From positions 1-51,769 of the forward strand of contig JANWZJ010000009.1 of the NCBI GenBank assembly GCA_025054525.1: 51,769 nt of DNA, given 5' to 3'. The notes beneath the pieces are model-generated. The model ran no database searches. It saw nothing but the letters and a program-made list of their open reading frames with translations, and was not told the DNA's origin. Position numbers and translations under genes: made by a program. Origin of the DNA: Bacteroidia bacterium. Lineage in GTDB: Bacteria > Bacteroidota > Bacteroidia > SpSt-205. Positions within the stretch are counted from its first letter, which is position 1; each line of letters starts with the position of its first letter. Positions 1,549 through 51,769 of the stretch are shown piece after piece.

Positions 1549-2100
1549 CTATACTTTCCACTTGATAGAACAGCCCATACTGGGCAGCTGAGGAGAAGGA
1601 GGGGGCTCCCCTTGAAGGAGTTTCTCTAAAGCCTCTTTTAGTTCTTCTCGGGTTACAGCGGCTGGATTCTGCCAGTTATCGTCTAAGCGCCCGTGATAGT
1701 ATAGCCTGTGCTGCGTGTCATACACGAAAAACTCTGGCGTACATACTGCGCCGAATGCCTTTGCAACGGCTTGGGTGCTATCGTAGAGGATAGGGAAAGG
1801 ATATGCCTTCTCCCGACTGCGACGACATAAAGCTTCAGGTGAGTCTTCCTCAGGATAAAGGGAAGGGTCATTAGAGGCTATACCTACCCAGCGAACCCCT
1901 CGGGGAATAAACGCTCGGGCTAAGCTGAGAAAGCGTTCCTCTACGGCTTTTACATAGGGGCAGTGCCCGCAAAGAAAAACTACTACTACGGGGGCACCTT
2001 GAAGCGAGTCACTGCTTAGCTCTTTTTCTCCACACACCCCCATCAAAGAAAAAGCAGGCAGGGGACTGCCTAAGGCTATTTCCGTAGCGTAGGTAGGCAT
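1549..2100 (-). CDS. Thioredoxin-fold redox protein (AhpC/TSA-like)
   Basis: A 183-residue thioredoxin-superfamily protein. The motif LCGHCPYVK at about 43-51 holds a redox-active CxxC (Cys44, Cys47), followed by the family's VGIASND strand, the FPILYDSTQAVAKAFGAVCTPEFFVYD segment with the cis-Pro TPEFF, and a HGRLDD loop. The C-terminal MGCSIKW is typical of this thioredoxin-family subgroup. No signal peptide is visible, so it is probably cytoplasmic. A TTTCTTTG box ends exactly 4 nt before the ATG. Partner and substrate are unknown; bacillithiol made through bshC in the same window could be a redox partner, but that is speculation. Confidence 0.82.
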   Translation of the reverse strand: MPTYATEIALGSPLPAFSLMGVCGEKELSSDSLQGAPVVVVFLCGHCPYVKAVEERFLSLARAFIPRGVRWVGIASNDPSLYPEEDSPEALCRRSREKAYPFPILYDSTQAVAKAFGAVCTPEFFVYDTQHRLYYHGRLDDNWQNPAAVTREELKEALEKLLQGEPPPSPQLPSMGCSIKWKV

Positions 2101-2104
2101 ACTT

Positions 2105-2112
2105 CAAAGAAA
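2105..2112 (-). promoter_or_regulatory. -7 promoter box of the thioredoxin-like gene
   Basis: Read leftward: TTTCTTTG, one mismatch to TAnnTTTG, 4 nt before the ATG at 2100. The rest of 2113-2241 shows nothing I can assign. Confidence 0.5.
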
Positions 2113-2241
2113 AGCATTTTAGGGGCGTTTTCTTCCTTTCGTCAGATATCACATATGGTATAGCTGATGCGGAATAAAGGGAGGCAATGCTGTTGATATG
2201 GATTAGTCCGCAACTACTCCTGATAGGGATAATCGCTACTG

Positions 2242-3237
2242 CTACAAAAGCTCACCCATCCACTTGAGCAGCTCATTCTCATAATAGCTCCATTTATGCC
2301 ATGGCTGCACTCCTTCCCTCCGATATAACTGCCAGAAGCTATCCCATACTATACTTACTCCTTCGGTATAAAGCACGGGCACACCTAAGACAGCTGCTTC
2401 ATAGAACTTGCCCGGGATTTTCTCTCGTAGGTGCGGCAAGGGCTGATAGAAAGCATACAGAAACCGAGCATATCGCTGAAGATTTTGAATAAGCGGGTAA
2501 GGCAAAAATGATGCATGAATCAGCAGCCAGCGGGAATGGTGAGCAAGCTGGGTGCGAAGCCAGGAAGCTATCTTCTTGTCTTTGATACTGCCGGCTATCA
2601 CTAAAGGCATATTCGGATGTTGAAGCGCATGGCTCACTGCCTCTGCGATACCCCAACTCCAAGTGATATTCCCCGAGTACAGCGCATATTGACCTGCTAA
2701 GTGAGGGAGTAGGGGCGGCGCTGATTCTACTTCTATAAATGCATTAGGGAAAACCCGGCTCCTTCTGGCGGGGAATCGGAGGGTATAAGGATATTCTGCG
2801 AGCGAGTAAGACCGCACTCTGGAGAGCCACAGACGCAGAAAGGTCCATATGCCTCGGCGGACTACTCTGCCTGGAAAGCTATAGGCAGGCTCAAAACGAA
2901 AGTTCGCTTCATAGTCCTCCCATACATCCCAGAGGAGAGGACTTCGCCCTCGGAGAAAAGCCCAGGGTATGTCCAACGGGTGCATCGCTATAAGCACACC
3001 TGTTACAGGAGGGATGCCCCTCCAATCGGTATAGGTGGATATATCTTGGGGAGGGGTTGAGAGCTGGCTCCAAACGACCTTATCTATATAAGGCTGCAAA
3101 GGGCCTTCTACGCAAGCCGGAGGAAAAGGACGGCCCCACACACTCACAGAGAAGCGTCGGGCTAAGGTGCGCGCCAAGCGATAGTAACCTCGCGGATGAA
3201 AAGCCACCGCATGCCGTAGCCAAATCGTAATCTCCAC
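2242..3237 (-). CDS. Glycosyltransferase, GT4-like
   Basis: A 331-residue protein with the layout of a GT-B glycosyltransferase. The acceptor-side N-terminal half includes HAVAFHPRGYYRLARTLA; the C-terminal half has SGNITWSWGIAEAV and GKFYEAAVLGVPVLYTEG, the usual sugar-nucleotide-binding segment with E(x)7-type spacing. No transmembrane helix is evident. The start is GTG at 3237, behind a TAGCTTTA box with a 4-nt spacer. It probably adds a sugar in surface polysaccharide or LPS assembly, like the GT4 and GT87 genes further right; donor and acceptor are unknown. It diverges from the macrodomain gene with only 26 bp between starts. Confidence 0.7.
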   Translation of the reverse strand: MEITIWLRHAVAFHPRGYYRLARTLARRFSVSVWGRPFPPACVEGPLQPYIDKVVWSQLSTPPQDISTYTDWRGIPPVTGVLIAMHPLDIPWAFLRGRSPLLWDVWEDYEANFRFEPAYSFPGRVVRRGIWTFLRLWLSRVRSYSLAEYPYTLRFPARRSRVFPNAFIEVESAPPLLPHLAGQYALYSGNITWSWGIAEAVSHALQHPNMPLVIAGSIKDKKIASWLRTQLAHHSRWLLIHASFLPYPLIQNLQRYARFLYAFYQPLPHLREKIPGKFYEAAVLGVPVLYTEGVSIVWDSFWQLYRREGVQPWHKWSYYENELLKWMGELL

Positions 3238-3241
3238 TGAA

Positions 3242-3259
3242 TAAAGCTATGTAGCTTCG
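3242..3259. promoter_or_regulatory. Back-to-back promoters, glycosyltransferase and macrodomain
   Basis: Leftward TAGCTTTA (3242-3249) lies 4 nt from the GTG at 3237; rightward TAGCTTCG (3252-3259) lies 4 nt from the ATG at 3264. The two boxes are 2 bp apart, so polymerase cannot occupy both at once. Confidence 0.6.
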
Positions 3260-3263
3260 CTCT

Positions 3264-3755
3264 ATGGGAGAAGTAAAAGTCATCCGAGGAGATATTACTC
3301 AACTGGCGGTAGAAGCGATTGTGAATGCGGCAAACGAAGCCCTTCTGCCCGGGGGTGGCGTGTCGGGGGCCATTCACCGAGCAGCTGGTCCTGAGTTAGC
3401 TGCCGCTTGCAGAGAAGTAGCGCCTTGTCCTACGGGGGAAGCTCGCATTACTCCGGGCTTTCGCCTCCCTGCCAAATACGTAATCCATACCGTCGGCCCC
3501 CGATGGCAAGGAGGCACCGCTGACGAACCCGAACTCTTAGAAAAAGCCTATCGCAGTGCCTTAGCCATAGCTCGGCAGCACAACCTACGCACGGTGGCTT
3601 TCCCTTCCATCAGCACAGGAATTTATGGATTTCCATTAGAGCAAGCCGCCCCTATCGCCCTGCGCGTATTGCGAGAAGAAGCTCCGCATTTTGACACCTT
3701 GTACTTAGTAGCCTTTGATGAAAAGACCTACGAAGCCTACGCCGCCCATTTATGA
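3264..3755 (+). CDS. Macrodomain ADP-ribose hydrolase (MacroD/YmdB type)
   Basis: A 163-residue single macrodomain. Family motifs are all present: GDIT (9-12), IVNAAN (19-24) for adenine and distal-ribose binding, [13 protein letters not shown] (30-42) loop, the VIHTVGPRW strand and the phosphate loop [10 protein letters not shown]. The MacroD-type set with NAAN and GGGVSGAI is associated with removing ADP-ribose from acidic side chains or hydrolysing O-acetyl-ADP-ribose; the precise substrate is unknown. It is cytoplasmic. The ATG lies 4 nt behind TAGCTTCG. Its stop overlaps the start of the TPR gene by 4 bp (ATGA). There is no ADP-ribosyltransferase beside it, so it is not an obvious toxin-antitoxin partner. 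Confidence 0.92.
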
Positions 3756-4075
3756 GCCGCGAAGAAGAACTGCGCACCCGAGTAGAACTCTATCCAGAAG
3801 ACCCCTTCTGGCCCCATACCTTAGGAGTTTATCTTTTGGGACAGGGACGCCTCGCCGAAGCCGAAACCGCCTTCCTGGAAGCCCTACGCCGAGACCCCAA
3901 ATATCACGCCACATTCTACCAGCTGGGCCTACTCTATGAACAACTGGGCAAAGAAGCAGAAGCCATTCGCTACCTCCGCGAAGGCGAACACCTCGCCGAA
4001 GATGCCCGAGACCTCAAACTCCTCCACGATTTCCGTCGCAAACTCCAGCTATATTTAGGGCTAGATGAAACATAA
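3752..4075 (+). CDS. Small TPR protein
   Basis: A 107-residue protein made almost wholly of about two tetratricopeptide repeats: [26 protein letters not shown] (about 24-49) and [24 protein letters not shown] (about 54-78), followed by a Lys/Arg-Leu helix. It has no signal peptide. It is a protein-protein adaptor by fold; the partner is unknown. Its start overlaps the macrodomain stop by 4 bp and its end overlaps the next gene by 11 bp, so the three are one translationally linked unit. Confidence 0.75.
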
Positions 4076-4742
4076 CCTCATTAGGCTTAGCACCTGCCTG
4101 AGCCTGCTAATCGCCCAAGAAACAGGTTTTGGGGTGCGCGGCGGACTTACTTTCTACCAGTACCGAACCCCTTATGCCCAATTTTTCGCTCGGATAGGAG
4201 GCGAACTCGGAGCCACCGGGCGAATTCCCCTCTTCGCCAATCGCAAAACTCAATTGCATCACGCCCTTCAACCCGCCTTCGGTTATCTCATGGGGCACTC
4301 TCGGCTGCTGTTAGATAGCAGTATCTATATCTCTCCGCTTACGGGTAGGCCTCTCCCTTCTACCGCCAGTGCCCATACTTACACCCACTTCTTGTACATG
4401 CAGGTGTTATGGCGGCTCAGCTTTGACCGGGAGGGGGCTTTGGGATTGGCAGCTGGACTCCAACTCCTGCGCCCCATGGGTCAAACCCTCCTCTTAGAAT
4501 ACGAAACCCCCGACGGACAACCTATTCAAGAGTGGAATAGCGTTGCCCTCTCCGACTTGCGCCGCATCTTACCCGCATGGATTCTCAACGGCTGCCTCTA
4601 TGCCGATATTCGCTTCTTCAAGGGATTGCGCAGCGAATGGCTCCTTCACATACAAACCCTCCACCAAGCGAATCGTTTCTTCTGGCCAACAGGACTCCTC
4701 CTGGGAGTAAGCTGGCTTTATACAGGCGCTAATACTCTATAA
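4065..4742 (+). CDS. Predicted outer-membrane or periplasmic protein, family unknown
   Basis: A 225-residue protein that I do not recognise. The N-terminus [18 protein letters not shown] is a plausible signal peptide. Alternating hydrophobic/aromatic stretches such as FGVRGGLTFYQYR, GLAAGLQLLRP and PTGLLLGVSWLYTG are typical of beta-barrel strands, so an outer-membrane barrel is likely. The start overlaps the TPR gene by 11 bp, the end overlaps the convergent phosphatase gene by 14 bp. The linkage to a macrodomain and a TPR gene does not reveal a job. Confidence 0.62.
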   Translation: MKHNLIRLSTCLSLLIAQETGFGVRGGLTFYQYRTPYAQFFARIGGELGATGRIPLFANRKTQLHHALQPAFGYLMGHSRLLLDSSIYISPLTGRPLPSTASAHTYTHFLYMQVLWRLSFDREGALGLAAGLQLLRPMGQTLLLEYETPDGQPIQEWNSVALSDLRRILPAWILNGCLYADIRFFKGLRSEWLLHIQTLHQANRFFWPTGLLLGVSWLYTGANTL

Positions 4743-6849
4743 GCGCTCCCATCTGAACCCTACCGTATTCGCGTAGGGATTCCATGGGGAGAATCAGCAA
4801 GGTTTTATCATCATTAGCAGGGGCATCCCCCTGCCACTGCACAAGCCATTCTAATATCATCTCCTTTTGTCGTTTCACAGGCAGAAATACTACCTTCTGA
4901 CCAAGCAGAAACTGACGAAATCCTTTTTTGCCGGGGCGCTTCATCGCCGGACTCAATACATCCGTAACCCCATCCGAGAAAGCATAAAACGTAATCTGCT
5001 CTTGCAGGGTAAAAGTATAAGAGGGGAACTCATAGTCGGTAGGGGTTGCAGCTTCTATGGAGAGGCGGCCGCCATCCAGTTCTTCCAGGGCATCAGCTCC
5101 TTCCCGATAGAACCACAAGGGTCTGCCCGCCAAACCTATGTGAAGTGTTCGCTTCTCAAAATCAGCAATTCCCAGGACCACTTCTGCCCCTTGTCTAACA
5201 ATTTCTTTTTCTCCTACCTGTATAAGACGCTGGAGGCTCTGCAAAAGCCGGCTTAGGAGCACTGAGGGAGATTGAAGGGGATTTTGGAAAAAGAGGGCTT
5301 GAATGTTCGTAGAGACGATCCCCGCGAGAATCGCCCCCGAAATCCCATGCCCCGTACAATCCCCCACTGCAAAAAGCAATCGTTTGGAGAAAGCATCGGC
5401 AGCCAAAGTATAAAAATCCCCGCCCACTTCTTGGAGGGGCCTGAAAATAATAGCGCTTTTAGGTAAGATTGCTTCTATATCAGGCAGGATAGCCCGCTGG
5501 AGCCTTTCTGCCGCTGTATAAGACTGTTTGAGTTCTTCCATCGCTTCCAATAGGCTTTCCGTCATGCGAGTAAGCTCTTGGGCTTGGCGGGCAAGCTGTT
5601 GGTTCTTTTGATCTATCTCCTGGGCCTGCTGAGAGACTTTCTCCCGAAAGAGTTTTTCCTCTCGGGCACGCCGGCGATTCTGATAAGCTAGGTAGCCCGT
5701 AATTCCTAATAAGAGTAGAAAGATGCCTCCTACTAAGGCATAAACAACTCGTTCCTTCTCTTGCTGCTGCTTAGCGAGTTGGAGTTGGGATTCTCGTTGG
5801 GTGATGCCAGAGAGTACTTGCCATTGGGTGGTTCGGGCTGCCAAGACTGCTTCCGTCTGAAGCCAAATCCACTCCATAAGCCTGTCATACAGAGCAATAG
5901 CCTGATCATACTGACGGCGATAGAGATATACTTGCGCCTGAGTGCGTCCCCATTCCACCTGAAGAGGCACAGGAAGGGCTTGTTTGTAGGCTTCTCCCTG
6001 CTTGAGCAGGGCTTCGGTAACTTCAGGCCTTTTCTGCAGAAGAGCCACCTGCGCTAATCCTAAATAAGCTTGAGCTATGCCCACCGTATCCTTCTGCTCC
6101 TTTCCCCAAGTTAATGCTTGCTCATACAGAGTCTGGGCTTGGGAGAGATTATTTGTTTCTATGTAGAGGGAAGCCAGATTGGCTAAAATCGCTGTATAAA
6201 TCGTCGGCCGCGGCTCTAATAAGGGAAAATACGGGACTTCTGAGAGCGACTCTAAGAGGGTCCGGGCTTTTTGCGCTAAGGCTATCGCACGAGTATAATC
6301 GCGCTGCGCAGCTGCCGCATACGATAAAGCATTAAGGGTAAGGGCCAGCAGGATAGGATGAGGTGCTTTTTGGAGAAGCTCTTCGGCAGAAGCGGCATAT
6401 CCTGCGGCTTTGAGCGGTTCTCTTTCCGCATGGGCTATCGCCATAGAGAGATAAGCATACGCCCGCAGGAATGGGGGCGCATTCTCCGCATTAGCTACTT
6501 GACTATAAAGAAAAAGCGCACTGTCTGCCTGACGCACCTTGTAGTAGTGGAGCGCTTGAGTCAAAACTGCCCAGAAATACAACGAGTCCCCCGAAGGAAG
6601 CCGACGAAAAGCATCCTGAAGCAGATTCGGAACCCCCTCTATGAGTCCGCCCTTAATCCAAGCCTGTGCCAGTAGAATATATGCTGCCGCTTGTTCCCGC
6701 TCATTCTGGGCGTCCAGAAGTAATCTGTATGCGCATTCGCCTATGCAGGTAGGATTTTCCCTGCAAGCGCTGCAATCGTTTCTTTCCTGAGCCCATAGCC
6801 CCAGCCCCATGCCCACCATCACCCACAACCAGCATCGCAACTCCCTCAT
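4729..6849 (-). CDS. TPR-membrane-SpoIIE (PP2C) serine phosphatase
   Basis: A 706-residue sensor phosphatase. Order: signal peptide MRELRCWLWVMVGMGLGLWAQ; periplasmic TPR array (about 25-340); transmembrane helix about 366-388 (VVYALVGGIFLLLLGITGYL); coiled-coil linker rich in Gln/Glu (about 395-455); C-terminal SpoIIE-type PP2C domain. Metal-binding aspartates are seen in VGGDFY (Asp478) and GDCTGHG (Asp497), with a later SDGVTDV motif. Such proteins remove phosphate from anti-sigma antagonists or other Ser/Thr targets in the cytoplasm in response to a periplasmic signal; the target is not in the window. Its ATG overlaps the stop of the TonB-dependent receptor by 4 bp, so it is translated with the receptor. 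Confidence 0.9.
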   Translation of the reverse strand: MRELRCWLWVMVGMGLGLWAQERNDCSACRENPTCIGECAYRLLLDAQNEREQAAAYILLAQAWIKGGLIEGVPNLLQDAFRRLPSGDSLYFWAVLTQALHYYKVRQADSALFLYSQVANAENAPPFLRAYAYLSMAIAHAEREPLKAAGYAASAEELLQKAPHPILLALTLNALSYAAAAQRDYTRAIALAQKARTLLESLSEVPYFPLLEPRPTIYTAILANLASLYIETNNLSQAQTLYEQALTWGKEQKDTVGIAQAYLGLAQVALLQKRPEVTEALLKQGEAYKQALPVPLQVEWGRTQAQVYLYRRQYDQAIALYDRLMEWIWLQTEAVLAARTTQWQVLSGITQRESQLQLAKQQQEKERVVYALVGGIFLLLLGITGYLAYQNRRRAREEKLFREKVSQQAQEIDQKNQQLARQAQELTRMTESLLEAMEELKQSYTAAERLQRAILPDIEAILPKSAIIFRPLQEVGGDFYTLAADAFSKRLLFAVGDCTGHGISGAILAGIVSTNIQALFFQNPLQSPSVLLSRLLQSLQRLIQVGEKEIVRQGAEVVLGIADFEKRTLHIGLAGRPLWFYREGADALEELDGGRLSIEAATPTDYEFPSYTFTLQEQITFYAFSDGVTDVLSPAMKRPGKKGFRQFLLGQKVVFLPVKRQKEMILEWLVQWQGDAPANDDKTLLILPMESLREYGRVQMGALIEY

Positions 6850-11038: not shown

Positions 11039-11046
11039 CAAAGGTA
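11039..11046 (-). promoter_or_regulatory. Leaderless-type promoter box of the GT4 gene
   Basis: TACCTTTG, read leftward, 4 nt before the GTG at 11034. Confidence 0.6.
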
Positions 11047-12369: not shown

Positions 12370-12400
12370 TTTGTACTGGCAAAGTTTTTGCCTACCTTTG
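12370..12400 (+). promoter_or_regulatory. Promoter of the rpmI-rplT-fabD operon
   Basis: The clearest two-part promoter in the window: TTTG at 12370-12373, 19 bp spacer, perfect TACCTTTG at 12393-12400, matching the Bacteroidota -33/-7 consensus. The box ends 7 nt before the ATG of rpmI, leaving little or no 5' leader. Confidence 0.7.
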
Positions 12401-13843: not shown

Positions 13844-13851
13844 TAACTTCG
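13844..13851 (+). promoter_or_regulatory. -7 box of the 57-residue small gene
   Basis: TAACTTCG, one mismatch to TAnnTTTG and the same variant as at the macrodomain gene, ending 5 nt before the ATG at 13857. Confidence 0.5.
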
Positions 13852-17456: not shown

Positions 17457-17464
17457 CAAAGTTA
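17457..17464 (-). promoter_or_regulatory. Leaderless-type promoter box of tsf
   Basis: TAACTTTG read leftward, 5 nt before ATG 17451, in the 19-bp gap to the upstream stop codon. Confidence 0.6.
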
Positions 17465-20555: not shown

Positions 20556-20563
20556 CAAAGATA
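20556..20563 (-). promoter_or_regulatory. Leaderless-type promoter box of the amidase gene
   Basis: TATCTTTG read leftward, 4 nt before ATG 20551, ending next to the upstream symporter stop. Confidence 0.6.
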
Positions 20564-22157: not shown

Positions 22158-22171
22158 CAAATATACCTTCG
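22158..22171. promoter_or_regulatory. Fused bidirectional promoter, symporter and pyrD
   Basis: Leftward TATATTTG occupies 22158-22165, 3 nt before ATG 22154. Rightward TACCTTCG occupies 22164-22171, 4 nt before GTG 22176. The boxes share the palindromic TA at 22164-22165. Confidence 0.6.
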
Positions 22172-22175: not shown

Positions 22176-23150
22176 GTGTGGTGGAGAATCATACGCCCTC
22201 TTCTCTTTAGCTTACCGCCTGAGAGAGCCCATGAGCTCACTTTCTATCTCTTAGAGCAGCTCCAACGCTGGGGTTTGTGGCATAAGCCCCCTCCTAAGAT
22301 AGCCCCTTTGAATTTGTGGGGGCTTTCGTGGGCGCACCCGCTGGGCTTAGCCGCGGGTATGGACAAAAACGCTAAGCTCCTCCCTTTCTGGGCTCACTTA
22401 GGATTTGCTTTTGTGGAAGTGGGCACTGTTACGCCGCTTCCGCAGTCGGGTAACCCACGTCCTCGTCTCTTTCGCATCCCCTCCGACCAAGCCCTACTCA
22501 ATCGCATGGGCTTCAATAATGATGGAGCAGCCGCCATAGCCCGTCGGCTGGAACAGCGCCCTTCTGGGCTTATCGTCGGCATAAACATGGGCAAAAACCG
22601 CTCCACCCCTTTAGAAGAAGCACACCAGGACTATGCCCAAGTATTTTGCACCCTCAGGGATTTAGGCGATTTCTTCGTTATCAATGTCAGCTCACCTAAT
22701 ACGCCAGGACTTCGCCAACTGCAGGAGCGAGAAGCTCTCTTGCGCATCCTTCATGCTATAGACAAGCATAACCCCAATCATCGCCCTATCCTCCTCAAAC
22801 TATCCCCTGATCTATCCGCCCAGCAGATAGAGATTATAGGCAAGCTTAGCGTAGAGGAGGGAGTAGCAGGATTTGTCGCGGGAAATACTACCACTCAGAT
22901 TCAGTATCCTCATCTCGGTGAGGGAGGGATAAGTGGCGCCCCCCTCAAACCCCTTAGACTTAAGCTAATTCAAGCCCTCCTACCTTTTCAGCTTCCTATT
23001 ATAGGCGTGGGGGGAATTTTCTCATCCCATGAAGTGCTGGGGACTTTACAAGCAGGGGCTTCCCTTGTAGAAGTATATACGGGGTTTGTGTACAGAGGCC
23101 CTCTACTCGTACGAGAGGCGGTGGAAGCACTAAGCAAAAATACCCCGTAG
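22176..23150 (+). CDS. pyrD: Dihydroorotate dehydrogenase (quinone), class 2
   Basis: A 324-residue class 2 PyrD, the membrane-associated quinone-linked enzyme of pyrimidine synthesis. Visible motifs are PLGLAAGMDKNAKLL (FMN site), VGTVTPLPQSGNPRPRLFRIP, NRMGFNNDGA, INVSSPNTPGLRQLQ with the catalytic Ser of class 2 enzymes, VAGNTTT, GGISGAPLKPLRL and GVGGIFSS. The N-terminal RPLLFSLPPERAHELTF is the membrane-tunnel helix pair. The start is GTG, 4 nt behind TACCTTCG. The last three codons and stop lie inside the 3' end of the convergent tRNA-Glu gene. Confidence 0.96.
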   Translation: MWWRIIRPLLFSLPPERAHELTFYLLEQLQRWGLWHKPPPKIAPLNLWGLSWAHPLGLAAGMDKNAKLLPFWAHLGFAFVEVGTVTPLPQSGNPRPRLFRIPSDQALLNRMGFNNDGAAAIARRLEQRPSGLIVGINMGKNRSTPLEEAHQDYAQVFCTLRDLGDFFVINVSSPNTPGLRQLQEREALLRILHAIDKHNPNHRPILLKLSPDLSAQQIEIIGKLSVEEGVAGFVAGNTTTQIQYPHLGEGGISGAPLKPLRLKLIQALLPFQLPIIGVGGIFSSHEVLGTLQAGASLVEVYTGFVYRGPLLVREAVEALSKNTP

Positions 23151-23214
23151 GGGATTTGAACCCCTGTTTCCTCCTTGAAAGAGAGGTGTCCTAACCGGGC
23201 TAGACGAACGGGGC
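23141..23214 (-). tRNA. tRNA-Glu (anticodon TTC), copy 1
   Basis: A 74-base cloverleaf read leftward. The acceptor stem GCCCCGT pairs with ACGGGGT (first pair G-U), discriminator A; T arm AGGGG-TTCAAAT-CCCCT; anticodon arm CCTCT-CTTTCAA-GGAGG with TTC at the anticodon, giving Glu. CCA is not encoded. The sequence is identical to copy 2. Bases 23141-23150 also carry the end of pyrD on the other strand. Confidence 0.96.
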
Positions 23215-23301
23215 TACTTGGGAGAAAACCAAAAAGAATAACAGATAGTCCGCTTTCAGAGTTCCTCTACTGCTCTGCGCAGAGGAGTCTCTGCCCGCAA
23301 G

Positions 23302-23375
23302 TACCCCGTAGGGGATTTGAACCCCTGTTTCCTCCTTGAAAGAGAGGTGTCCTAACCGGGCTAGACGAACGGGGC
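23302..23375 (-). tRNA. tRNA-Glu (anticodon TTC), copy 2
   Basis: Identical to copy 1 over all 74 bases and placed 87 bp upstream of it, same strand. A TATCTTTG box (23384-23391) ends 8 nt before its 5' end. Copy 1 lacks a clear box of its own, so both are probably made as one precursor. No CCA is encoded. Confidence 0.96.
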
Positions 23376-23693: not shown

Positions 23694-23881
23694 AATAAAA
23701 ATTCCAAACTTGCCCCCTGCTTTTTAGTGCCTGCTTCCACAAGCTATCCACAAAATTACCCGATTAAGCAGGGGGGGTGACTCTCTGTAGCTTTCATCAA
23801 AATATCCTGTCTAATTCCACAGAAACCCATCCCGGCCTATTGGTCGCTTTAATACTAATCAAAAAATCTTATCTTCGCCCC

Positions 23882-28753: not shown

Positions 28754-28795
28754 CAAAGGTATCCAGAAATATCCAGCCATTTTTCTTTATATTTG
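28754..28795. promoter_or_regulatory. Divergent promoters of kbl and the HPF-like gene
   Basis: Leftward TACCTTTG at 28754-28761 (4 nt before ATG 28749); rightward TATATTTG at 28788-28795 (8 nt before ATG 28804). The starts are 54 bp apart. Confidence 0.55.
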
Positions 28796-34689: not shown

Positions 34690-34717
34690 CAAAACTACCG
34701 AAAACCTCATATCTTTG
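34690..34717. promoter_or_regulatory. Divergent promoters of gyrA and the acidic secreted protein
   Basis: Leftward TAGTTTTG at 34690-34697, 4 nt before GTG 34685. Rightward TATCTTTG at 34710-34717, 7 nt before GTG 34725. The starts are 39 bp apart. The supercoiling-sensitive gyrA promoter is thus physically tied to its neighbour's. Confidence 0.55.
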
Positions 34718-35807: not shown

Positions 35808-35815
35808 TAGCTTTG
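35808..35815 (+). promoter_or_regulatory. -7 box of the rhomboid gene
   Basis: TAGCTTTG, 7 nt before ATG 35823, just after the end of the acidic-protein gene. Confidence 0.55.
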
Positions 35816-38084: not shown

Positions 38085-38092
38085 CAAAGATA
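38085..38092 (-). promoter_or_regulatory. Leaderless-type promoter box of gcdH
   Basis: TATCTTTG read leftward, 4 nt before ATG 38080. Confidence 0.6.
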
Positions 38093-39767: not shown

Positions 39768-39810
39768 CAAATATACAACAATTTTTCCTTCCGCAACTCC
39801 TCTAACTTTG
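39768..39810. promoter_or_regulatory. Divergent promoters of HMA-like gene and sensor kinase
   Basis: Leftward TATATTTG at 39768-39775 (4 nt before ATG 39763); rightward TAACTTTG at 39803-39810 (5 nt before GTG 39816). Confidence 0.6.
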
Positions 39811-45141: not shown

Positions 45142-45149
45142 CAAAGTTA
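45142..45149 (-). promoter_or_regulatory. Leaderless-type promoter box of the propeller-like gene
   Basis: TAACTTTG read leftward, 4 nt before GTG 45137. Confidence 0.6.
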
Positions 45150-45485: not shown

Positions 45486-45512
45486 GCAAGGGGGGAGCTA
45501 ATCCCCCCTTGC
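45486..45512. terminator. Strong hairpin between convergent genes
   Basis: An 11-bp perfect inverted repeat with a 5-nt loop (arms 45486-45496 and 45502-45512, GC-rich core of six G-C pairs). It lies 17 nt past the DUF2892 stop and before the end of the leftward gene. There is no T-run on either side, so it would be a bidirectional stall/3'-end structure rather than a classical intrinsic terminator. Confidence 0.6.
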
Positions 45513-45560
45513 TATCACCTTGTACTTATTCAGAAGAAAAGTATTGCCCCAAGGTTACGC

Positions 45561-46019: not shown

Positions 46020-46025
46020 ACGGGG

Positions 46026-46033
46026 CAAAGGTA
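46026..46033 (-). promoter_or_regulatory. -7 box of the small membrane protein gene
   Basis: TACCTTTG read leftward, 6 nt before ATG 46019. The rest of 46034-46140 shows nothing assignable. Confidence 0.55.
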
Positions 46034-46140
46034 GATATTTTTCTGAGTACATAGTTCATAGCTCGTCACCTAATGTCAGCTTGATAAGCACGGAGTATTT
46101 GTACATAAGCCTTCGGTTTGTACAAGGGTTTGTGGGTATG

Positions 46141-47604
46141 TTATGACCTCATCCAACCCCACTGTGCGGCACAGAACGACACCTCCTTTATCATCCGGTG
46201 AACCCATTCTTGAGGATGCTGGGGAGCGAAAGCGTGGATATTGAGTTCTCGTTCTTGAAGCCGACCCTCGGGTTCTATGCGCAGCCGATACGCAACAGCT
46301 GCCTCTATAAGTTCTCGGTACTGATGGAACGCAGCCTTTTTGGCGACTTGATAAAGTTCTCGCTGGATGCGTTCCCAGTGCCATTCCACCATGCGGGCGG
46401 CTCGGCCCCAGAAAGGGCTCCCCTTCCATCGCTCTAATCGGGGCTGATGTTGTATGATCCAACTCCGGACCTCTTCTATGAGAGCCTCCCCCCAACTGCG
46501 TGCTAAGACAGCGCGAAGTTGCCCCACAGGATAGTTCCAAAGGTGCTCTACTTGCCAGCCCCCCGGCAAAATCGGAGGCTCTCCCCTAACTATTCTCAAA
46601 TGACCTCGGGGATAAAGCACAGGCATAGGGACCTCCATCGCCTCAAATACCCCGCGCAGCTCCAGCCAGTAGCGCACTTCGCCTGGACCCGCTACATAGG
46701 CTAAGTTGGGTAGAAGCATTTCCTGAAACACAGGACGCAGAAAGACATTAGGACTAAGAGCCTCGGGGTGGGTATAGATAATGCGTCGTAGGAGGGAGCT
46801 TTCTTCGGGATAGGGGTACCTTCTTTCCCGCTCCTTCAGCCAAAATAGATTTATAGGCTGGGCATGCAGTACGGGCTTTTCTCGGATAGCCTTGAGGTAA
46901 GAGACCGTCGGGAGATGGGCACTGCGTGTAGCTTGCTGACATACCTCTCGTTCCCAGAGGGGAAGTCCTAGTGCCTTGAGTTCCGAGTCATCGGGGGAAA
47001 TCCATACTATTCCTTTACCTGCAAAAACGGACTGCATCGCCGCCCGGAAGGCATTTTCCCATTTCTCTTCTGTTTGCCAGAACCGCTGCAGTCCCAAACT
47101 TTCTGCTTCAGGGGGAAAAGCCGCTTCAATCTCATGTCGCCCCACAGCTCCTTGCATAACTCCATTATAGCGCAGGGATTTTTCCCAATCCAGCTTTATG
47201 GAAACTACCTCTTCGACATCATGGTCTTCTGAGGCTATCCAGAAAACAGGTATGATTCGGTATTTCCCTTGGAGTTGCTGCTCTACTTCATGGGAAAGCT
47301 GGATAGTATGTACCGCTTTGATGAGCGTGTAAAGAGGACCTGTAAGCCAGCCTGGCTGCTGTCCCGTAGTAATAGTGAAGGAGTTTTCGTTTCCCAGAGC
47401 CTCAATTGCTTCACGAAGGACGGGGTCCTGAGCAAGCCAGGGCTGGTTTTGGCGCAGCAGTGCTTCTACCAGTACTCGCCGATGGAGGGGGTATGCGCGC
47501 CGCTCTTGAATCACTCGGAGCCACGGTGGGTCTCGCCATTCCCATGCGTAGAGTGGGCGCAGCGCAGGGTCTTCTGCTACATACCGAGCCCAGCGTCTAT
47601 TCAC
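46141..47604 (-). CDS. bshC: Bacillithiol synthase (cysteine-adding enzyme) BshC
   Basis: A 487-residue BshC, which adds cysteine to glucosaminyl-malate in the last step of bacillithiol synthesis. The TTGQQPGWLTGPLYTLIKA motif, the PVFWIASEDHDVEEV motif and the C-terminal coiled coil are typical. GTG start at 47604, 8 bp inside the end of the DUF445 gene. BshA and BshB are not in the window. Presence of BshC indicates bacillithiol as the main low-molecular-weight thiol, as in many Bacteroidota. Confidence 0.95.
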   Translation of the reverse strand: MNRRWARYVAEDPALRPLYAWEWRDPPWLRVIQERRAYPLHRRVLVEALLRQNQPWLAQDPVLREAIEALGNENSFTITTGQQPGWLTGPLYTLIKAVHTIQLSHEVEQQLQGKYRIIPVFWIASEDHDVEEVVSIKLDWEKSLRYNGVMQGAVGRHEIEAAFPPEAESLGLQRFWQTEEKWENAFRAAMQSVFAGKGIVWISPDDSELKALGLPLWEREVCQQATRSAHLPTVSYLKAIREKPVLHAQPINLFWLKERERRYPYPEESSLLRRIIYTHPEALSPNVFLRPVFQEMLLPNLAYVAGPGEVRYWLELRGVFEAMEVPMPVLYPRGHLRIVRGEPPILPGGWQVEHLWNYPVGQLRAVLARSWGEALIEEVRSWIIQHQPRLERWKGSPFWGRAARMVEWHWERIQRELYQVAKKAAFHQYRELIEAAVAYRLRIEPEGRLQERELNIHAFAPQHPQEWVHRMIKEVSFCAAQWGWMRS

Positions 47605-48682
47605 TCGGCCGCTGCAGTCTGTACAAAGCTTCGTCTAAAATCCACAGCCCCCCAATCGTCGTTATAGCTCCTATTAGCGATAGCCAGGGATTCATAATGA
47701 AAACTCCAGCAAGCACCCCTAACAGCGCTCCTAAGTTCTGAATAAACTCCAAATGCTCACTCGTCGTATAAAGGAAAAGCCTCTCAAGCTGCCGCTCATC
47801 AAACCCTTTGAGCTGGTTGTAGATGATGGGATAAAGCGGCACGCGAATAATGATGTTACGAATCACCTCTGCTAATAAGTCTTCCAGCTCTTGGGTATGA
47901 GATAAGATAAAAGCACGCACTTCTTCTTCGGGTAAAACAAGCCCTCGCATCGCTTCCTCAAATGCGTCGGGTATAGATACTACGACTCGGGCTAAGACTT
48001 CCTTATAGCCTTTTTCATTCAGCTGACGATAAGAACGAAATAAACTCCCCGCTATACCCGAAGGCGCCACCTGTACCAAGCGCGTATCCAGAACTTGTAC
48101 CAAGTACTTTTGCTGATTAGGATTGAGCACAAAGTCTTGCAGGGTGCGCTTTCCAGCGCGGATGATCTCTTCTCTGAATTCTGGGTCATTCAATAAGTTA
48201 GAGGTTCCCTCGGTCAGAGCGGTAGCTAAACGTTGAGCCACCCCTGCCTCGTGGAGTACGCGATGTAGGATTTCTTCATTCAAGATGTAGCGGGTGATAG
48301 CTTCGGCGAAACGCTCTACGATACGCATTTTGTAGGCGGGCACCAAGCCTTGTCCCCAAACAGGGCGCGGCTTGCGCGGGTGAAAGAGCATTTTGATAGC
48401 TAACCAGTTCGTGCCATAACCAACTAAGCCAGTAACTGAAAGCACATATGCGATTTCATACAGACGATTATAGGTGGTAGGGAGGAATGCCCACCGTTGA
48501 TGAATGAGGTAGGCGAATACCACTGCTCCTAAGAAGTGCGGGGCATAGCGAAGGATGCGCGCCATGATTTTGTAACGAAGGCGTAAGGGGGGCGCACTAC
48601 TGGGCTGAGGAAGCGTAGCAAGCGATAGTACATCCTCCAGCCGAAAATGCCGACTCAAGTAGCGGTCCAGCAGTTCCCGCAC
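47597..48682 (-). CDS. DUF445-family membrane protein
   Basis: A 361-residue protein with the DUF445 layout: an N-terminal transmembrane region (about 65-85, and near VTGLVGYGTNWLAIKMLFHPRKP, the family's diagnostic GxxTNWLAIKMLF motif), long helical middle, and a C-terminal hydrophobic pair (LGALLGVLAGVFIMNPWLSLIGAIT). Function of the family is unknown. The start is set at GTG 48682, 4 nt behind TACTTTTG; the reading from 48742 would run over the divergent promoter. It precedes bshC with an 8-bp overlap. Confidence 0.82.
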   Translation of the reverse strand: MRELLDRYLSRHFRLEDVLSLATLPQPSSAPPLRLRYKIMARILRYAPHFLGAVVFAYLIHQRWAFLPTTYNRLYEIAYVLSVTGLVGYGTNWLAIKMLFHPRKPRPVWGQGLVPAYKMRIVERFAEAITRYILNEEILHRVLHEAGVAQRLATALTEGTSNLLNDPEFREEIIRAGKRTLQDFVLNPNQQKYLVQVLDTRLVQVAPSGIAGSLFRSYRQLNEKGYKEVLARVVVSIPDAFEEAMRGLVLPEEEVRAFILSHTQELEDLLAEVIRNIIIRVPLYPIIYNQLKGFDERQLERLFLYTTSEHLEFIQNLGALLGVLAGVFIMNPWLSLIGAITTIGGLWILDEALYRLQRPSE

Positions 48683-48686
48683 CGCA

Positions 48687-48694
48687 CAAAAGTA
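48687..48694 (-). promoter_or_regulatory. Leaderless-type promoter box of the DUF445-bshC unit
   Basis: TACTTTTG read leftward, 4 nt before GTG 48682. The divergent M20 gene has a weaker CACTTTTG at 48697-48704, 9 nt before its ATG. Confidence 0.55.
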
Positions 48695-48713
48695 GGCACT
48701 TTTGCAAAGCAGA

Positions 48714-49883
48714 ATGAACTCTCTATTGGACCAGCTTATCACCTGGCGAAGGCACCTTCATCAGAACCCAGAACTATCCTTCCAAGAATATGAAACCCAA
48801 GCTTATCTCTGGCAGCAGTTGGAGCGGTTAGACGGCATTTATCTTCGCAAAGCAGCGAATACAGGTATCATAGCCGACCTAATCACTGACACGGCTGGTC
48901 CTTGGATAGCGCTACGAGCCGATATGGATGCGCTACCTATGGAAGAGACTCCCGAACGCCCCTATCGCTCCCTCTATAATGGACGCATGCATGCTTGCGG
49001 ACATGACGCGCATATGGCTATTCTGTTGGGCGCTATTTACCTTTTGTATCAGCAGCGAGCCCACTGGAAAGGCGGTATCCGATGCATATTCCAACCTGGC
49101 GAAGAAAAAGCCCCCGGCGGTGCTTCTCTCCTTCTTCAAGAAGGCATACTGCAAGAAGTGCCTATCCAGGGTATATGGGGACTGCATGTAACCCCCCAGC
49201 TCCCCGTGGGTCAGATAGGCTTGCGCTCAGGCGCATTCATGGCCGCGAGTGATGAGTTCTCCCTAATACTTCAGGGCAGAGGAGGACATGCTGCTTATCC
49301 TCATCTGAGCCGCGACCTGATTGCCATCGGAGCATCCCTCATCATGGAACTGCAAATGGTGGTCAGTCGCGCAGCGGACCCGCGCTCGCCGACTGTGCTT
49401 TCGTTCGGTCAGTTCCAAGCAGGAACTGCCGCCAATATCTTTCCCACTCAAGCCCATTTACGCGGCACCTTACGCACTTTTGACGAGAAATGGCGCCAGG
49501 ATGCACGCGCCCTCATCCAGCGGATTGTATCCCACACCGCTACCGCTTGGGAAATAGAAGCGGAACTGACGTTTCTACCGGGCTATCCTGTGCTCCAAAA
49601 TGACCCCACCCTCACTGCCCTCACCCGGCGCTGGGTCGTGGAACTCTTAGGAGAGGCTTCCACACTGGAAATGCCGCTTTGGCTTGGTTCGGAAGATTTC
49701 GCCTTCTATAGCCATGTCGTGCCTGCTTGCTTCATGCGATTGGGTACAGGCGGCGAACACCCCCATACGCGCCTGCCCGTGCATACCCCCGCTTTTGACA
49801 TAGATGAAAGAGGCTTAGAAATAGGGGCTCGTCTCTTCGCGCACATAGCCTTACGCGCGTTAGCCCACTTCCAAGCGTCTTAG
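48714..49883 (+). CDS. M20-family amidohydrolase (IAA-amino acid/N-acetyl amino acid hydrolase type)
   Basis: A 389-residue zinc peptidase of the M20D type, which removes an acyl or amide group from amino-acid conjugates. Metal-site motifs: HACGHDAHM (about 93-101), PGEEKAPGGA with Glu about 125-128, the GRGGHAAYPH lid-domain motif and the C-terminal GSEDFAFY with the last ligand. The N-terminus RRHLHQNPELSFQEYET is diagnostic. No signal peptide, so cytoplasmic. ATG 48714 is used; the TTG at 48702 is in the promoter area. Confidence 0.9.
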   Translation: MNSLLDQLITWRRHLHQNPELSFQEYETQAYLWQQLERLDGIYLRKAANTGIIADLITDTAGPWIALRADMDALPMEETPERPYRSLYNGRMHACGHDAHMAILLGAIYLLYQQRAHWKGGIRCIFQPGEEKAPGGASLLLQEGILQEVPIQGIWGLHVTPQLPVGQIGLRSGAFMAASDEFSLILQGRGGHAAYPHLSRDLIAIGASLIMELQMVVSRAADPRSPTVLSFGQFQAGTAANIFPTQAHLRGTLRTFDEKWRQDARALIQRIVSHTATAWEIEAELTFLPGYPVLQNDPTLTALTRRWVVELLGEASTLEMPLWLGSEDFAFYSHVVPACFMRLGTGGEHPHTRLPVHTPAFDIDERGLEIGARLFAHIALRALAHFQAS

Positions 49884-50410
49884 GGGATATTCCGCCGAAG
49901 CCACCTTCTTGCCGCCACACCTATATTCAAACCCAAGTGCAGCGCAAACTGTATTTTCTCGCCCGCATAGACCCCCTCTCCTCTCAAGAACGGTTCCACA
50001 CTAAATCCATACCCTTGCCGAAAGATATGCTGATACCCGACGGATAGACCCATTCCCCCCGAGTATTTTCTCTCTCGCCATCCGATTATGCCATGAAGGC
50101 CCCCCCACAGTCCTTCCAGAGCATATTTTGGTCGCAAGAAGTAATAGCGTATTCCTCCTCGCAGCAGCCATGTTCTTCTCGGATAAAAGCCCACGCCTAC
50201 TATGCTTGCCAGCCCTTCCCATCGGGCGCGTTCTACATTCGCTTGGAAAGCAGGTGCCCATGCAAAAAGCCGATATTCTCCCGTAAGCTCATATTCTCTC
50301 CAGAAAAAACTGATGAGGTTCGCTTTGAGCGCATACCGACTTGGGAGTTGAGCAAAAGCCACCCCCCAAACACTACTCCATAAGAGCAGATTTCTCACTG
50401 CCTCGCCCAT
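49880..50410 (-). CDS. Small outer-membrane beta-barrel protein
   Basis: A 176-residue protein: N-terminal signal peptide (VRNLLLWSSVWGVAFAQ), then alternating aromatic-hydrophobic strands (YALKANLISFFWREYELTGEYRL, VGVGFYPRRTWLLRGGIRYYF, GGLHGIIGWRE, GGMGLSVGYQHIF, LGLNIGVAARRW), typical of a compact outer-membrane barrel of the DUF3575 kind. The start is ATG 50410 or the in-frame GTG 50398, the latter giving a neater signal peptide. It overlaps the arginase gene by 38 bp and converges with the M20 gene by 4 bp. Confidence 0.7.
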   Translation of the reverse strand: MGEAVRNLLLWSSVWGVAFAQLPSRYALKANLISFFWREYELTGEYRLFAWAPAFQANVERARWEGLASIVGVGFYPRRTWLLRGGIRYYFLRPKYALEGLWGGLHGIIGWRERKYSGGMGLSVGYQHIFRQGYGFSVEPFLRGEGVYAGEKIQFALHLGLNIGVAARRWLRRNIP

Positions 50411-51311
50411 CTATGAAAGGTCTCACCGTGCCGTAAGCATACATAGCCGTCTGATTGTCCCTGTCAAATAGAGGATTAATCTCCGTAACTTCCACGAAAC
50501 GCACCTTTTCCCAGGCGAACACCTCCTCTAAGAAAGTGCGCACTTGGGCTATACTAAGCCCCCCAGGGGCAGGAGAACCCGTGCCGCGCGCAAAACTCGG
50601 ATCCCACACATCCACGTCTAAACTCACATACAGTGCATCCACTCTTTCTGCCAGCGCTTGTGCTTGCTGGAGAATAGGTTGAACCCCAACCGAAGCGACA
50701 CTGCGAGCAGAAAAATGAGATATGCCCTGACTCTGAATCAGCTCCATCTCAGGCGGTTCGTAACTACGAAGGCCTATCAGTATAAGGTTTTCCGCTGTTA
50801 TCACAGGGCGAACCAACTCTTCCCATAGCTTCCATGTGGCTTGAGGAACGGGATGGTAGCGATGAGTGTTCAAACCCGTAATCATCGCCAGCGTCATTCC
50901 ATGCAGATTGCCAGAAGGAGAAGTCGCCGGATTATGAAAATCCGCATGAGCATCCAGCCATATTACGCCTATCTTTTGTATTTTTTCGGCAAGTGTGGGC
51001 AGAATAACTCCTGTCCAACTATGATCCCCTGTAAGAAAAAGTACTTTTTCCTCTACGGACAGAGACATTATGCCTTCTCGTACCTTTTCAGCAAAGTTTC
51101 TCCAAGGCTCTAAACGATTCGCATAAACGTGGCTTCCTACCCCTATCCATGCAGGCTGTGAAGAGTCAGGGGATAACCACTTATGCTGGGCTTCTATCCA
51201 AGCCAAATGCTTGTAATGTAGTCCCAATGCATACCACGCTTGTACGCCTCCTATACCTCCGGGCTGCCCTGCTCCCCAGTCGCATGCCACCGCCACTACT
51301 TGCAGCCCCAT
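50373..51311 (-). CDS. Arginase-type ureohydrolase
   Basis: A 312-residue manganese ureohydrolase. Metal ligands: His97 in TGDHS, Asp120, His122 and Asp124 in DAHADFH, and Asp232, Asp234 in SLDVDVWDP. The TSPSGNLHGMTLAM segment matches arginase, not agmatinase, so the likely reaction is arginine to ornithine plus urea; an agmatine substrate is the alternative. ATG 51311 gives the family N-terminus; the TTG at 51320 is 9 nt upstream. It diverges from an arginine decarboxylase gene, which competes for the same substrate, and precedes a small outer-membrane barrel. Confidence 0.87.
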   Translation of the reverse strand: MGLQVVAVACDWGAGQPGGIGGVQAWYALGLHYKHLAWIEAQHKWLSPDSSQPAWIGVGSHVYANRLEPWRNFAEKVREGIMSLSVEEKVLFLTGDHSWTGVILPTLAEKIQKIGVIWLDAHADFHNPATSPSGNLHGMTLAMITGLNTHRYHPVPQATWKLWEELVRPVITAENLILIGLRSYEPPEMELIQSQGISHFSARSVASVGVQPILQQAQALAERVDALYVSLDVDVWDPSFARGTGSPAPGGLSIAQVRTFLEEVFAWEKVRFVEVTEINPLFDRDNQTAMYAYGTVRPFIDGRGSEKSALME

Positions 51312-51328
51312 AATATACAACTTTGTTT

Positions 51329-51336
51329 CATATTTG
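51329..51336 (+). promoter_or_regulatory. -7 box of the arginine decarboxylase gene
   Basis: CATATTTG, one mismatch to TAnnTTTG, 4 nt before GTG 51341. The leftward arginase gene shows no box at a standard distance. Confidence 0.5.
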
Positions 51337-51340
51337 CGCC

Positions 51341-51769
51341 GTGCAAAGTTATGCCGAGTTTCTGGACCTAAGCGTGGACTTCCCGCAGGATGGGTTTGAG
51401 GTTATAGACGATGAGTTGCATTTCCATGGAATAAACCTCATAGAACTCGTAGAGACCTACGGCACACCACTGCGCCTCACTTACTTGCCTATCATCGGTA
51501 AGAAAATCCAAAAAGCTCGCCTTTATTTTCAGGAAGCATTTCTCAAAAACGATTACCATGGTCAATACCATTATGCTTATTGTACCAAAAGCTCTCATTT
51601 CCGCCATATCTTAGAGGAAGTCCTCAAGCATCAAGTCCATATAGAGACTTCGTCTGCGTTTGACATGGAGATAGTGGAGACCTTAGAGCGTAGAGGGCTT
51701 ATCTCTAAGAAAGAAACTATGGTTATATGCAACGGCTACAAAACCCCCACCTACTCCCAACGCATAGTA
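51341..51769 (+). CDS. speA: Biosynthetic arginine decarboxylase, N-terminal part (runs out of window)
   Basis: An open frame of 143 codons that leaves the window without a stop. GTG 51341, 4 nt behind CATATTTG. It reads SYAEFLDLSVDFPQDGFEV, then FHGINLIELVETYGTPLRLTYLPIIG, the YHYAYCTKSSHF segment and IETSSAFDMEIVE, all typical of the Bacteroidota PLP-dependent SpeA, with YCTKSSHF containing the PLP lysine. It makes agmatine and CO2 from arginine, the first step of polyamine synthesis. The large beta and C-terminal domains lie outside. Confidence 0.92.
   Translation, partial: MQSYAEFLDLSVDFPQDGFEVIDDELHFHGINLIELVETYGTPLRLTYLPIIGKKIQKARLYFQEAFLKNDYHGQYHYAYCTKSSHFRHILEEVLKHQVHIETSSAFDMEIVETLERRGLISKKETMVICNGYKTPTYSQRIV

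Follow-up and report, generated by a model that had tools for sequence, protein, structure and literature searches.

The window, a stretch of 51,769 nucleotides from a Bacteroidia genome, carries genes for proteins such as ribosomal protein L35, EF-Ts, dihydroorotate dehydrogenase and GyrA, many of them closely preceded by an octamer of the form TAnnTTTG. The initial annotation had reported such a box 3–5 nt upstream of 18 starts, at exactly 4 nt in 14 cases. Both counts are reproduced: a box is present at 18 out of 18 starts, with a gap between box and start codon of 4 nt at 14, 5 nt at three and 3 nt at one. Eleven boxes match TAnnTTTG exactly and seven have one mismatch. Exact boxes also precede five further starts (12408, 28804, 34725, 35823, 46019), at gaps of 6–8 nt. 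Five of the 18 starts (13857, 22154, 23882, 39763, 51341) were not picked by the start caller or lie at the window edge.

Table 1. Boxes resembling the -7 element upstream of start codons in the window ("Match" refers to TAnnTTTG; "Gap" is the distance from box to start codon).
Position	Strand	Box	Match	Gap (nt)	Start	Gene and remarks
2105..2112	-	TTTCTTTG	1 mismatch	4	ATG 2100	AhpC/TSA-redoxin family gene
3242..3249	-	TAGCTTTA	1 mismatch	4	GTG 3237	back-to-back with 3252-3259
3252..3259	+	TAGCTTCG	1 mismatch	4	ATG 3264	macro-domain gene; divergent box 2 bp away
11039..11046	-	TACCTTTG	exact	4	GTG 11034	glycosyltransferase
12393..12400	+	TACCTTTG	exact	7	ATG 12408	ribosomal protein L35 (rpmI)
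13844..13851	+	TAACTTCG	1 mismatch	5	ATG 13857	57-aa ORF without Pfam match
17457..17464	-	TAACTTTG	exact	5	ATG 17451	EF-Ts
20556..20563	-	TATCTTTG	exact	4	ATG 20551	amidase/CUB protein
22158..22165	-	TATATTTG	exact	3	ATG 22154	sodium:solute symporter; two base pairs common to divergent box 22164-22171
22164..22171	+	TACCTTCG	1 mismatch	4	GTG 22176	dihydroorotate dehydrogenase
23870..23877	+	TATCTTCG	1 mismatch	4	ATG 23882	thioredoxin-like
28754..28761	-	TACCTTTG	exact	4	ATG 28749	aminotransferase
28788..28795	+	TATATTTG	exact	8	ATG 28804	S30AE-family protein; divergent from 28749
34690..34697	-	TAGTTTTG	exact	4	GTG 34685	GyrA
34710..34717	+	TATCTTTG	exact	7	GTG 34725	divergent from gyrA, boxes 12 bp apart
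35808..35815	+	TAGCTTTG	exact	7	ATG 35823	rhomboid-family gene
38085..38092	-	TATCTTTG	exact	4	ATG 38080	acyl-CoA dehydrogenase
39768..39775	-	TATATTTG	exact	4	ATG 39763	108-aa ORF without Pfam match, not picked by start caller
39803..39810	+	TAACTTTG	exact	5	GTG 39816	histidine-kinase-like ATPase
45142..45149	-	TAACTTTG	exact	4	GTG 45137	no Pfam match
46026..46033	-	TACCTTTG	exact	6	ATG 46019	
48687..48694	-	TACTTTTG	exact	4	GTG 48682	DUF445
51329..51336	+	CATATTTG	1 mismatch	4	GTG 51341	ORF extends past window edge

Start codons were taken from a simple coding-score caller, and the 43 gene starts of the window were called blind to the box. An exact box at gap 3–5 is found at 9 of the 43, with a mean of 0.04 and a maximum of 1 in 300 shuffles; when one mismatch is allowed, 15 are positive (shuffle mean 0.84, maximum 5). 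Among all 2,798 ATG and GTG of the window, in any context, 15 feature an exact box at gap 3–5 (shuffled 1.9, maximum 5) and 56 a box with no more than one mismatch (shuffled 36.1, maximum 45): outside gene starts, a one-mismatch box taken alone therefore counts for little.

Tallied over the whole genome against controls, as the initial annotation had proposed, box-to-start spacing has a peak at 4 nt. This genome has 133 sites of the pattern TAnnTTTG-N4-ATG, versus 6 for the reversed pattern; all 12 genomes of the family that were examined contain 133–223 such sites each, versus 2–23 reversed (summed, 2,023 versus 116). In 601 kb of the genome, the numbers of boxes at gaps 3 to 12 are 6, 46, 19, 14, 15, 8, 4, 5, 3 and 2; gaps 3–5 account for 71, versus 2.2 from six rearranged control boxes, while few boxes lie further out (27 at gaps 13–60, 17.3 expected). 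After subtraction of controls, and with only ATG and GTG counted as starts, 54% of the boxes leading into an ORF are at gap 3–5, 38% at gap 6–12 and 8% at gap 13–60; the corresponding figures for 80 named Bacteroidota loci are 11%, 5% and 84%, with a minority peak at gap 4 (18 boxes; 4 each at gaps 3 and 5). About 92% of the excess boxes in this genome thus imply leaders of at most ~8 nt.

The box is most frequent in front of divergently transcribed genes, where it is found, exact and at gap 3–5, in 27 out of 132 (shuffle mean 0.2), versus 22 out of 290 closely spaced same-strand starts; if the boxes mark leaderless transcripts, the latter must be internal promoters. With up to one mismatch and gaps of 3–12, 65 of the 132 divergent genes are positive (~7 expected by chance). 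About half of them are without a recognisable box, and the leaderless claim is accordingly limited to genes that have one. TTG is never used at the 42 divergent starts with gap 4 or 5, versus 41 of the 160 other starts, which would follow from a preference of RNA polymerase for a purine; the wider ORF list does contain a few TTG starts (3 of 116 at gap 4–5). TTG is also more often found among wrongly called starts. An apparent dip at gap 6, followed by another peak at gap 7, which might have been read as a forbidden 2-nt leader, proved to be an artefact: TTG had been admitted by the filter that selects the 5'-most start, and the box ends in an in-frame TTG at gaps 3, 6, 9 and 12. Whole-genome counts (677 and 676) and the repeat restricted to ATG and GTG remove the dip.

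The same element emerges when no motif is imposed: upstream of the 132 divergent starts, T-12, A-11, T at -9 to -6 and G-5 rise above background. The pooled profile of 122 aligned sites, made with the TTG-counting filter and hence with gaps 6, 9 and 12 thinly represented, features an AT-rich patch near -18 and no -33 TTTG motif; within the box, G reaches 15% at the third position and 5% at the fourth. The exact TAnnTTTG, in strong excess at starts, matches the -7 box of Sigma-ABfr-type promoters (-33/-7, TTTG/TAnnTTTG), described in Bacteroides fragilis, Flavobacterium johnsoniae, B. thetaiotaomicron and F. psychrophilum, and the register is also the same. Of 434 candidate boxes in F. johnsoniae, selected by their distance of 4–5 nt from starts predicted by RNA-seq, 241 have T-12 A-11 T-8 T-7 T-6 G-5; in F. 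psychrophilum the box occupies -12 to -5 from the transcription start. A 4-nt gap would therefore place the transcription start on the start codon. The scarcity of G at the fourth position, the AT-rich patch and the lack of an evident -33 are shared with F. johnsoniae; since there too the -33 TTTG is much less evident, its absence does not exclude Sigma-ABfr-type membership. G at the third position differs, being virtually zero in F. johnsoniae.

What sets the family apart from cultured Bacteroidota is that their Sigma-ABfr boxes usually lie further from the gene. Leaders exceed 10 nt in 87% of cases in F. johnsoniae (mean 33); most measure 23 nt in B. thetaiotaomicron, with 3.7% under 10 nt; in F. 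psychrophilum the median is 24 and 5.5% are leaderless. Overall, published transcriptomes of three cultured species put leaderless or very short leaders at 3.7–13%.

The genome is also compact. The median start-to-start distance of divergent genes, pairs with overlapping called starts included, is 39 bp versus 208 bp in the named loci, and 20 of the 43 close divergent pairs (excluding those whose starts overlap or are separated by over 300 bp) feature two back-to-back boxes. Same-strand genes in operons have a median gap of 3 bp, the commonest overlap being 4 nt.

Signals for ribosome binding were sought upstream of the same genes. Shine-Dalgarno motifs (GGAG, GAGG or AGGA, 4–16 nt upstream) are not enriched at divergent and same-strand genes (7%, versus 10% in a control stretch). 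The Kozak-like signal of Bacteroidota is marked by A at -3 and -6: upstream of the 132 divergent starts no A excess is found at these positions (0.27 and 0.18, background 0.27), while the named loci have a modest one (0.42 and 0.38, background 0.34). In the available text of PMC6847099, Bacteroidota are described as lacking Shine-Dalgarno sequences and F. johnsoniae as using Kozak-like ones; the family resembles that system in the former respect and differs in lacking the A excess. Two candidate correlates were discarded. G006, the one family member read, retains the anti-SD CCTCC at its 16S 3' end, and loss of bS21 fails as a correlate, the protein being present in 39 of the 40 genomes searched, with G009, of the same family, as the single exception.

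Conservation was evaluated on 94 reciprocal best pairs with G006 (median identity 61%), a box TAnnTT[T/C]G being accepted if it preceded a candidate start anywhere within the initial 40% of the ORF. Eight pairs have a gap of 4–5 in both genomes, versus 3.4 expected (Fisher p = 0.005), and in five of these the same start is mapped; the box occurs in one genome only in 9 + 11 of the 94 pairs, so that conservation is moderate. Six pyrD orthologues were inspected by eye, a seventh, partial one (G001) being left out: in four, the box precedes by 3–4 nt a start that coincides with the homologous N-terminus or is one codon away from it; two are without a plain box, and one has a gap of 3. Outside the family, G012, a genome of the same order, has no excess at gap 4 (50 versus 39 reversed), and in a 78-kb sample of it 12 of 21 starts have a box at gap 3–12, mostly 5–7. 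The idea that the pattern is exclusive to the family was rejected, as G051, from a second family, has 356 sites versus 75 reversed, a like excess per Mb. Together, the excess in G051 and the gaps in G012 suggest that very short leaders may also occur outside the family.

One mark of leaderless genes, a promoter element set at a constant short spacing from the start codon more often than by chance, is found here. The boxes are probably, at roughly 85%, -7 elements recognised by the Bacteroidota housekeeping sigma factor, and their placement would make RNA polymerase initiate on the start codon or within a few bases of it. The leaderless reading advanced by the initial annotation thus gains support from the sharp genome-wide peak at 4 nt, its recurrence in 12 out of 12 family genomes and the promoter register of Flavobacterium, to which may be added the paucity of upstream boxes, intergenic gaps too short for leaders and the lack of an A-rich signal before the start. 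Boxed genes are predicted to yield mRNAs beginning with 5'-AUG or 5'-GUG, or with a leader of at most ~8 nt. Ribosomes would begin at a start codon at the very 5' end, with neither a Shine-Dalgarno nor an A-rich signal before it; genes inside operons may be initiated by tight coupling. With no leader to house, many divergent genes could have moved together, leaving between their start codons little beyond the length of two back-to-back -7 boxes.

Chance or base composition is refuted by the shuffles, rearranged boxes and reversed pattern, which fall short by ~8-fold (in the weakest single genome) to 200-fold: nothing favours it for exact boxes, and only the modest surplus of one-mismatch boxes at any ATG or GTG of the window speaks for it, so that its probability is negligible. 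The boxes might instead be real promoters of genes whose true start codons lie further downstream, behind ordinary leaders. Start calls are computational, and mapped Bacteroidota leaders mostly exceed 10 nt; yet the box is locked at exactly 4 nt to the called ATG or GTG, and an unrelated upstream codon would not give such a lock. For gyrA, GTG 34685 is the 5'-most ATG, GTG or TTG of its frame, and homology to 80 named GyrA begins at residues 1–8, so that initiation further downstream would remove part of the aligned region; for 79 named gyrA genes, the nearest upstream start (only upstream ones being considered) lies 2–14 codons before the residue matching GTG 34685. The position of the pyrD boxes near the homologous N-terminus also argues against downstream starts, which are quite improbable.

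Absence of Shine-Dalgarno sequences in Bacteroidota, and the Kozak-like usage reported for F. johnsoniae, would fit a different role for the box, as a non-SD ribosome-binding element acting at the RNA level within a leader, with the promoter further upstream. This is highly improbable: the sequence matches the sigma -7 consensus together with its AT-rich patch, more distant upstream boxes hardly exceed expectation, many divergent gaps could not accommodate a second promoter plus a leader, and the preference of exact boxes for divergent over same-strand genes is a promoter bias, not a ribosome-site bias. Ordinary genome compaction, finally, may have produced merely very short leaders, the 5'-terminal start codon having no special role. 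The boxes at gap 6–12, implying leaders of ~2–8 nt, the compactness of the family throughout and the gaps of 5–7, rather than 4, in G012 are in its favour; it does not account for a sharp maximum at 4 in place of a smooth slope, nor for the minority peak in the non-compact named loci, and we regard it as unlikely.

More tentatively, leaderless initiation at the start codon could be the family default for newly started transcripts. Head-to-head pairs might then consist of overlapping promoters within ~26–60 bp, each a single bidirectional, mutually exclusive switch, and G051 may have reached a similar state, perhaps independently. Divergent promoters with both -7 elements in ~30 bp would offer a natural test of two polymerases sharing a site. 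Leaderless genes of Actinobacteria and Deinococcus-Thermus, in the available text of Zheng et al. 2011 (PMC3160421), likewise have a promoter element whose short spacing to the start codon is constant, there a TA-like Pribnow box as opposed to TAnnTTTG. According to the same text, that survey sought only Pribnow-like boxes, and leaderless genes were found in one out of 37 Bacteroidetes/Chlorobi genomes, at 2.4% of genes. A mode measured as rare in Bacteroidota is thus predicted to be frequent in a little-known family of theirs, in which starts may be misassigned by gene finders that were trained on ordinary Bacteroidota. With the anti-SD still present in G006, the lineage lends itself to comparing leadered relatives with putatively leaderless ones. 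Identity between the GyrA of the window and its nearest named counterpart is 54%.

The window (51,769 bases, 51% GC) belongs to a draft genome of 1.80 Mb, in 116 contigs and 92% complete; in a single genome-contig scan, which may omit near relatives, the nearest named match to its GyrA came from a Bacteroidia MAG (54% identity). Its family, f1, comprises 12 of the listed genomes, 11 from the window's genus and one from a second genus. The initial annotation had proposed that most TAnnTTTG boxes (the Bacteroidota -7 promoter element) lie 4 nt from the start codon, and had set beforehand, as a check, a tally of box-to-start spacing over the genome. This was performed on 601 kb of unmasked sequence, about one third of the genome (the draft genomes include masked contigs): each box was paired with the 5'-most ATG or GTG in any ORF spanning 80 codons or more, while six rearranged boxes, scaled to equal box number, served as control. 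The resulting gap shares refer to genome samples, and gene starts are those of a simple caller.

A peak at gap 4, with 46 sites in 601 kb, is found as proposed: counts for gaps 3 to 12 are 6, 46, 19, 14, 15, 8, 4, 5, 3 and 2, with nearly none from there to gap 18. Gaps 3-5 hold 54% of the excess over control (71 vs 2.2), gaps 6-12 38% (51 vs 2.4) and gaps 13-60 8% (27 vs 17.3). The corresponding shares are 62, 30 and 8% in G006, of the same genus (55, 29 and 23 sites), and 52, 37 and 11% in the other f1 members pooled (20, 15 and 10 sites). When any ATG is counted, regardless of ORF status, the 12 listed f1 genomes give 2,023, 910, 677 and 676 sites at gaps 4, 5, 6 and 7, where the reversed pattern yields 116, 111, 112 and 111 (sums added by hand from per-genome tables).

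Within the window, TAnnTTTG occurs 41 times vs 25.4 expected. All 18 starts for which a box 3-5 nt upstream had been claimed do feature one, exact in 11 cases and with one mismatch in seven, 14 of them at exactly 4 nt. Among 43 starts called by coding score alone, an exact box at gap 3-5 precedes nine (shuffle mean 0.04), and one with at most one mismatch precedes 15 (shuffle mean 0.84). TAnnTTCG accounts for four of the seven boxes with one mismatch.

Positions of boxes and genes mentioned in the text
Feature	Positions	Strand	Remark
TAnnTTCG box	3252-3259		one mismatch
TAnnTTCG box	13844-13851		one mismatch
Symporter box	22158-22165		
pyrD box, TAnnTTCG	22164-22171		one mismatch
pyrD	22176-23150		
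tRNA-Glu (UUC)	23141-23214	minus	10-bp overlap with end of pyrD
tRNA-Glu (UUC)	23301-23375	minus	tandem, 86 bp between the two
TAnnTTCG box	23870-23877		one mismatch
gyrA start	34685		GTG, exact box at gap 4
Two boxes, L011	7099-7114		abutting

In F. johnsoniae, 434 candidate boxes are reported upstream of starts predicted from RNA-seq, 241 of which, at 4-5 nt, are probable promoters (PMC6847099); these read T-12 A-11 T-8 T-7 T-6 G-5, and G is almost missing from their two free positions; patches rich in A and T lie at -18 and -28, with little to see at -33. Mapped starts in F. psychrophilum have the box at positions -12 to -5. Counting the first base of the start codon as +1, the gap-4 boxes described here are in an identical register; they are therefore read as promoters, and the 5' end of the mRNA is predicted to fall at the start codon. 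Among 122 aligned sites, G occupies the second free base in 5% and, unlike in F. johnsoniae, the first in 15%; the sequence is AT-rich at -16 to -19, and no TTTG motif shows up at -33. A motif-free profile returns the same positions. TTG starts are absent at gap 4-5 of divergent genes (0/42), vs 41/160 of their other starts, and number 3/116 at gap 4-5 in a wider ORF list; this scarcity agrees with a purine at +1; start-calling errors may widen the contrast. About half of the divergent genes have no recognisable box.

The set of 80 named gyrA loci (1.53 Mb, Bacteroidota; two are titled Chlorobiota) behaves differently, with 11, 5 and 84% of the excess at gaps 3-5, 6-12 and 13-60, and a broad hump around gap 18-30. 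This hump fits the commonest leader reported for B. thetaiotaomicron, 23 nt, and supports the method. In the whole genomes behind 26 named loci, the reversed control is exceeded at most 2.6-fold; among 48 relatives outside f1, only G020 exceeds it more than fivefold (32 vs 3). Of 295 other genomes of the phylum, six of them also among those relatives, G211 (4.2 Mb) has the top excess, 99 sites, and G031 the highest density, about 43 excess sites per Mb; f1 genomes reach 127-207 sites, about 70-104 per Mb. Four of nine f67 members stand at 5-7 times control (28-56 sites); five of the nine listed (G158, G162, G170, G193, G201) lie at about 3-7 times the reversed control, with few sites, possibly reflecting moderate leaderless use. 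A clear exception is G051 (family f41, same class, 35% GC), with 356 vs 75 sites: its roughly 97 extra TAnnTTTG-N4-ATG sites per Mb about equal f1. In its sample (L177-L186, 131 kb) 45% of the excess is at gap 3-5, with 21 of 59 starts there; its 13 divergent pairs have a median gap of 71 bp. In G012 (same order, family f2), whole-genome counts show no gap-4 excess; in its sample (L136-L138, L197-L206), 12 of 21 starts have a box at gap 3-12, mostly 5-7 and never 4, and very short leaders may accordingly be older than f1. Across the class, promoters at exactly 4 nt therefore occur as a minority; among recognised boxes they are the rule in f1.

Reported frequencies are 13% for leaders of at most 10 nt in F. 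johnsoniae, 3.7% for leaders below 10 nt in B. thetaiotaomicron, and 5.5% leaderless in F. psychrophilum; according to PMC3160421, where only Pribnow-like boxes were sought, 1 of 37 Bacteroidetes/Chlorobi genomes has leaderless genes. In these and the other sources compared (PMC7366714, PMC9723704, PMC5397173, PMC10783764, PMC9581028, PMC3155529), and among the papers listed in searches of open literature, with subscription journals and preprints mostly outside their scope, no description of a mainly leaderless Bacteroidota lineage was recognised.

Between orthologues, conservation is partial. Of 94 reciprocal best pairs between the own-genome sample and G006, eight have a box at gap 4-5 in both (3.4 expected, p = 0.005), five of these at the same start, and 20 in one genome only. 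For pyrD, the upstream sequences of orthologues (60-67% identity) in six f1 members were read by eye: an exact box is found at gap 4 in G003 and G002 and at gap 3 in G005, a one-mismatch box at gap 4 in G006, while in G004 and G008 it is not plain. Beyond these six, pyrD has a partial match in G001 and further matches outside f1. No exact box lies within 12 nt of the 79 named gyrA starts; 12 have one 23-51 nt upstream, and 67 none within 60 nt.

On the translation side, own-genome starts feature no Shine-Dalgarno excess, nor an excess of A at -3 or -6. G006 retains the anti-SD CCTCC, and bS21 is found in 11 of the 12 listed f1 genomes; G009 (same genus, 99% complete), the sole genome without a bS21 match among 40 searched, may owe this to an assembly gap.

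Genes are closely packed. Median separation is 39 bp for divergent pairs (66, overlapping calls included) vs 208 bp in named loci (155 pairs; p = 5e-19, 65 vs 155 pairs), and 3 bp vs 68 bp for same-strand pairs, 49 of 357 of which overlap by 4 nt. Facing boxes (CAAAnnTA ... TAnnTTTG, at most 80 bp apart) form 27 pairs in the own sample vs 0-7 over 20 shuffles, and 77 in named loci vs 39-64 shuffled. Convergent pairs number seven and tandem pairs eight in the own sample; named loci have 52 convergent pairs. In the own genome and G006, 20 of 43 divergent pairs with 0-60 bp between starts have boxes on both sides (at most one mismatch, gap 3-12; shuffles give 0.3, with a maximum of 2 in 100 shuffles). 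In eight divergent pairs with starts 26-33 bp apart the two boxes are 2-9 bp from each other; those of the symporter and pyrD have two base pairs in common. Two polymerases would hardly fit together on such a site, so that mutual exclusion at back-to-back promoters is likely. Two boxes abut in L011. The first of two tandem tRNA-Glu genes overlaps the end of pyrD.
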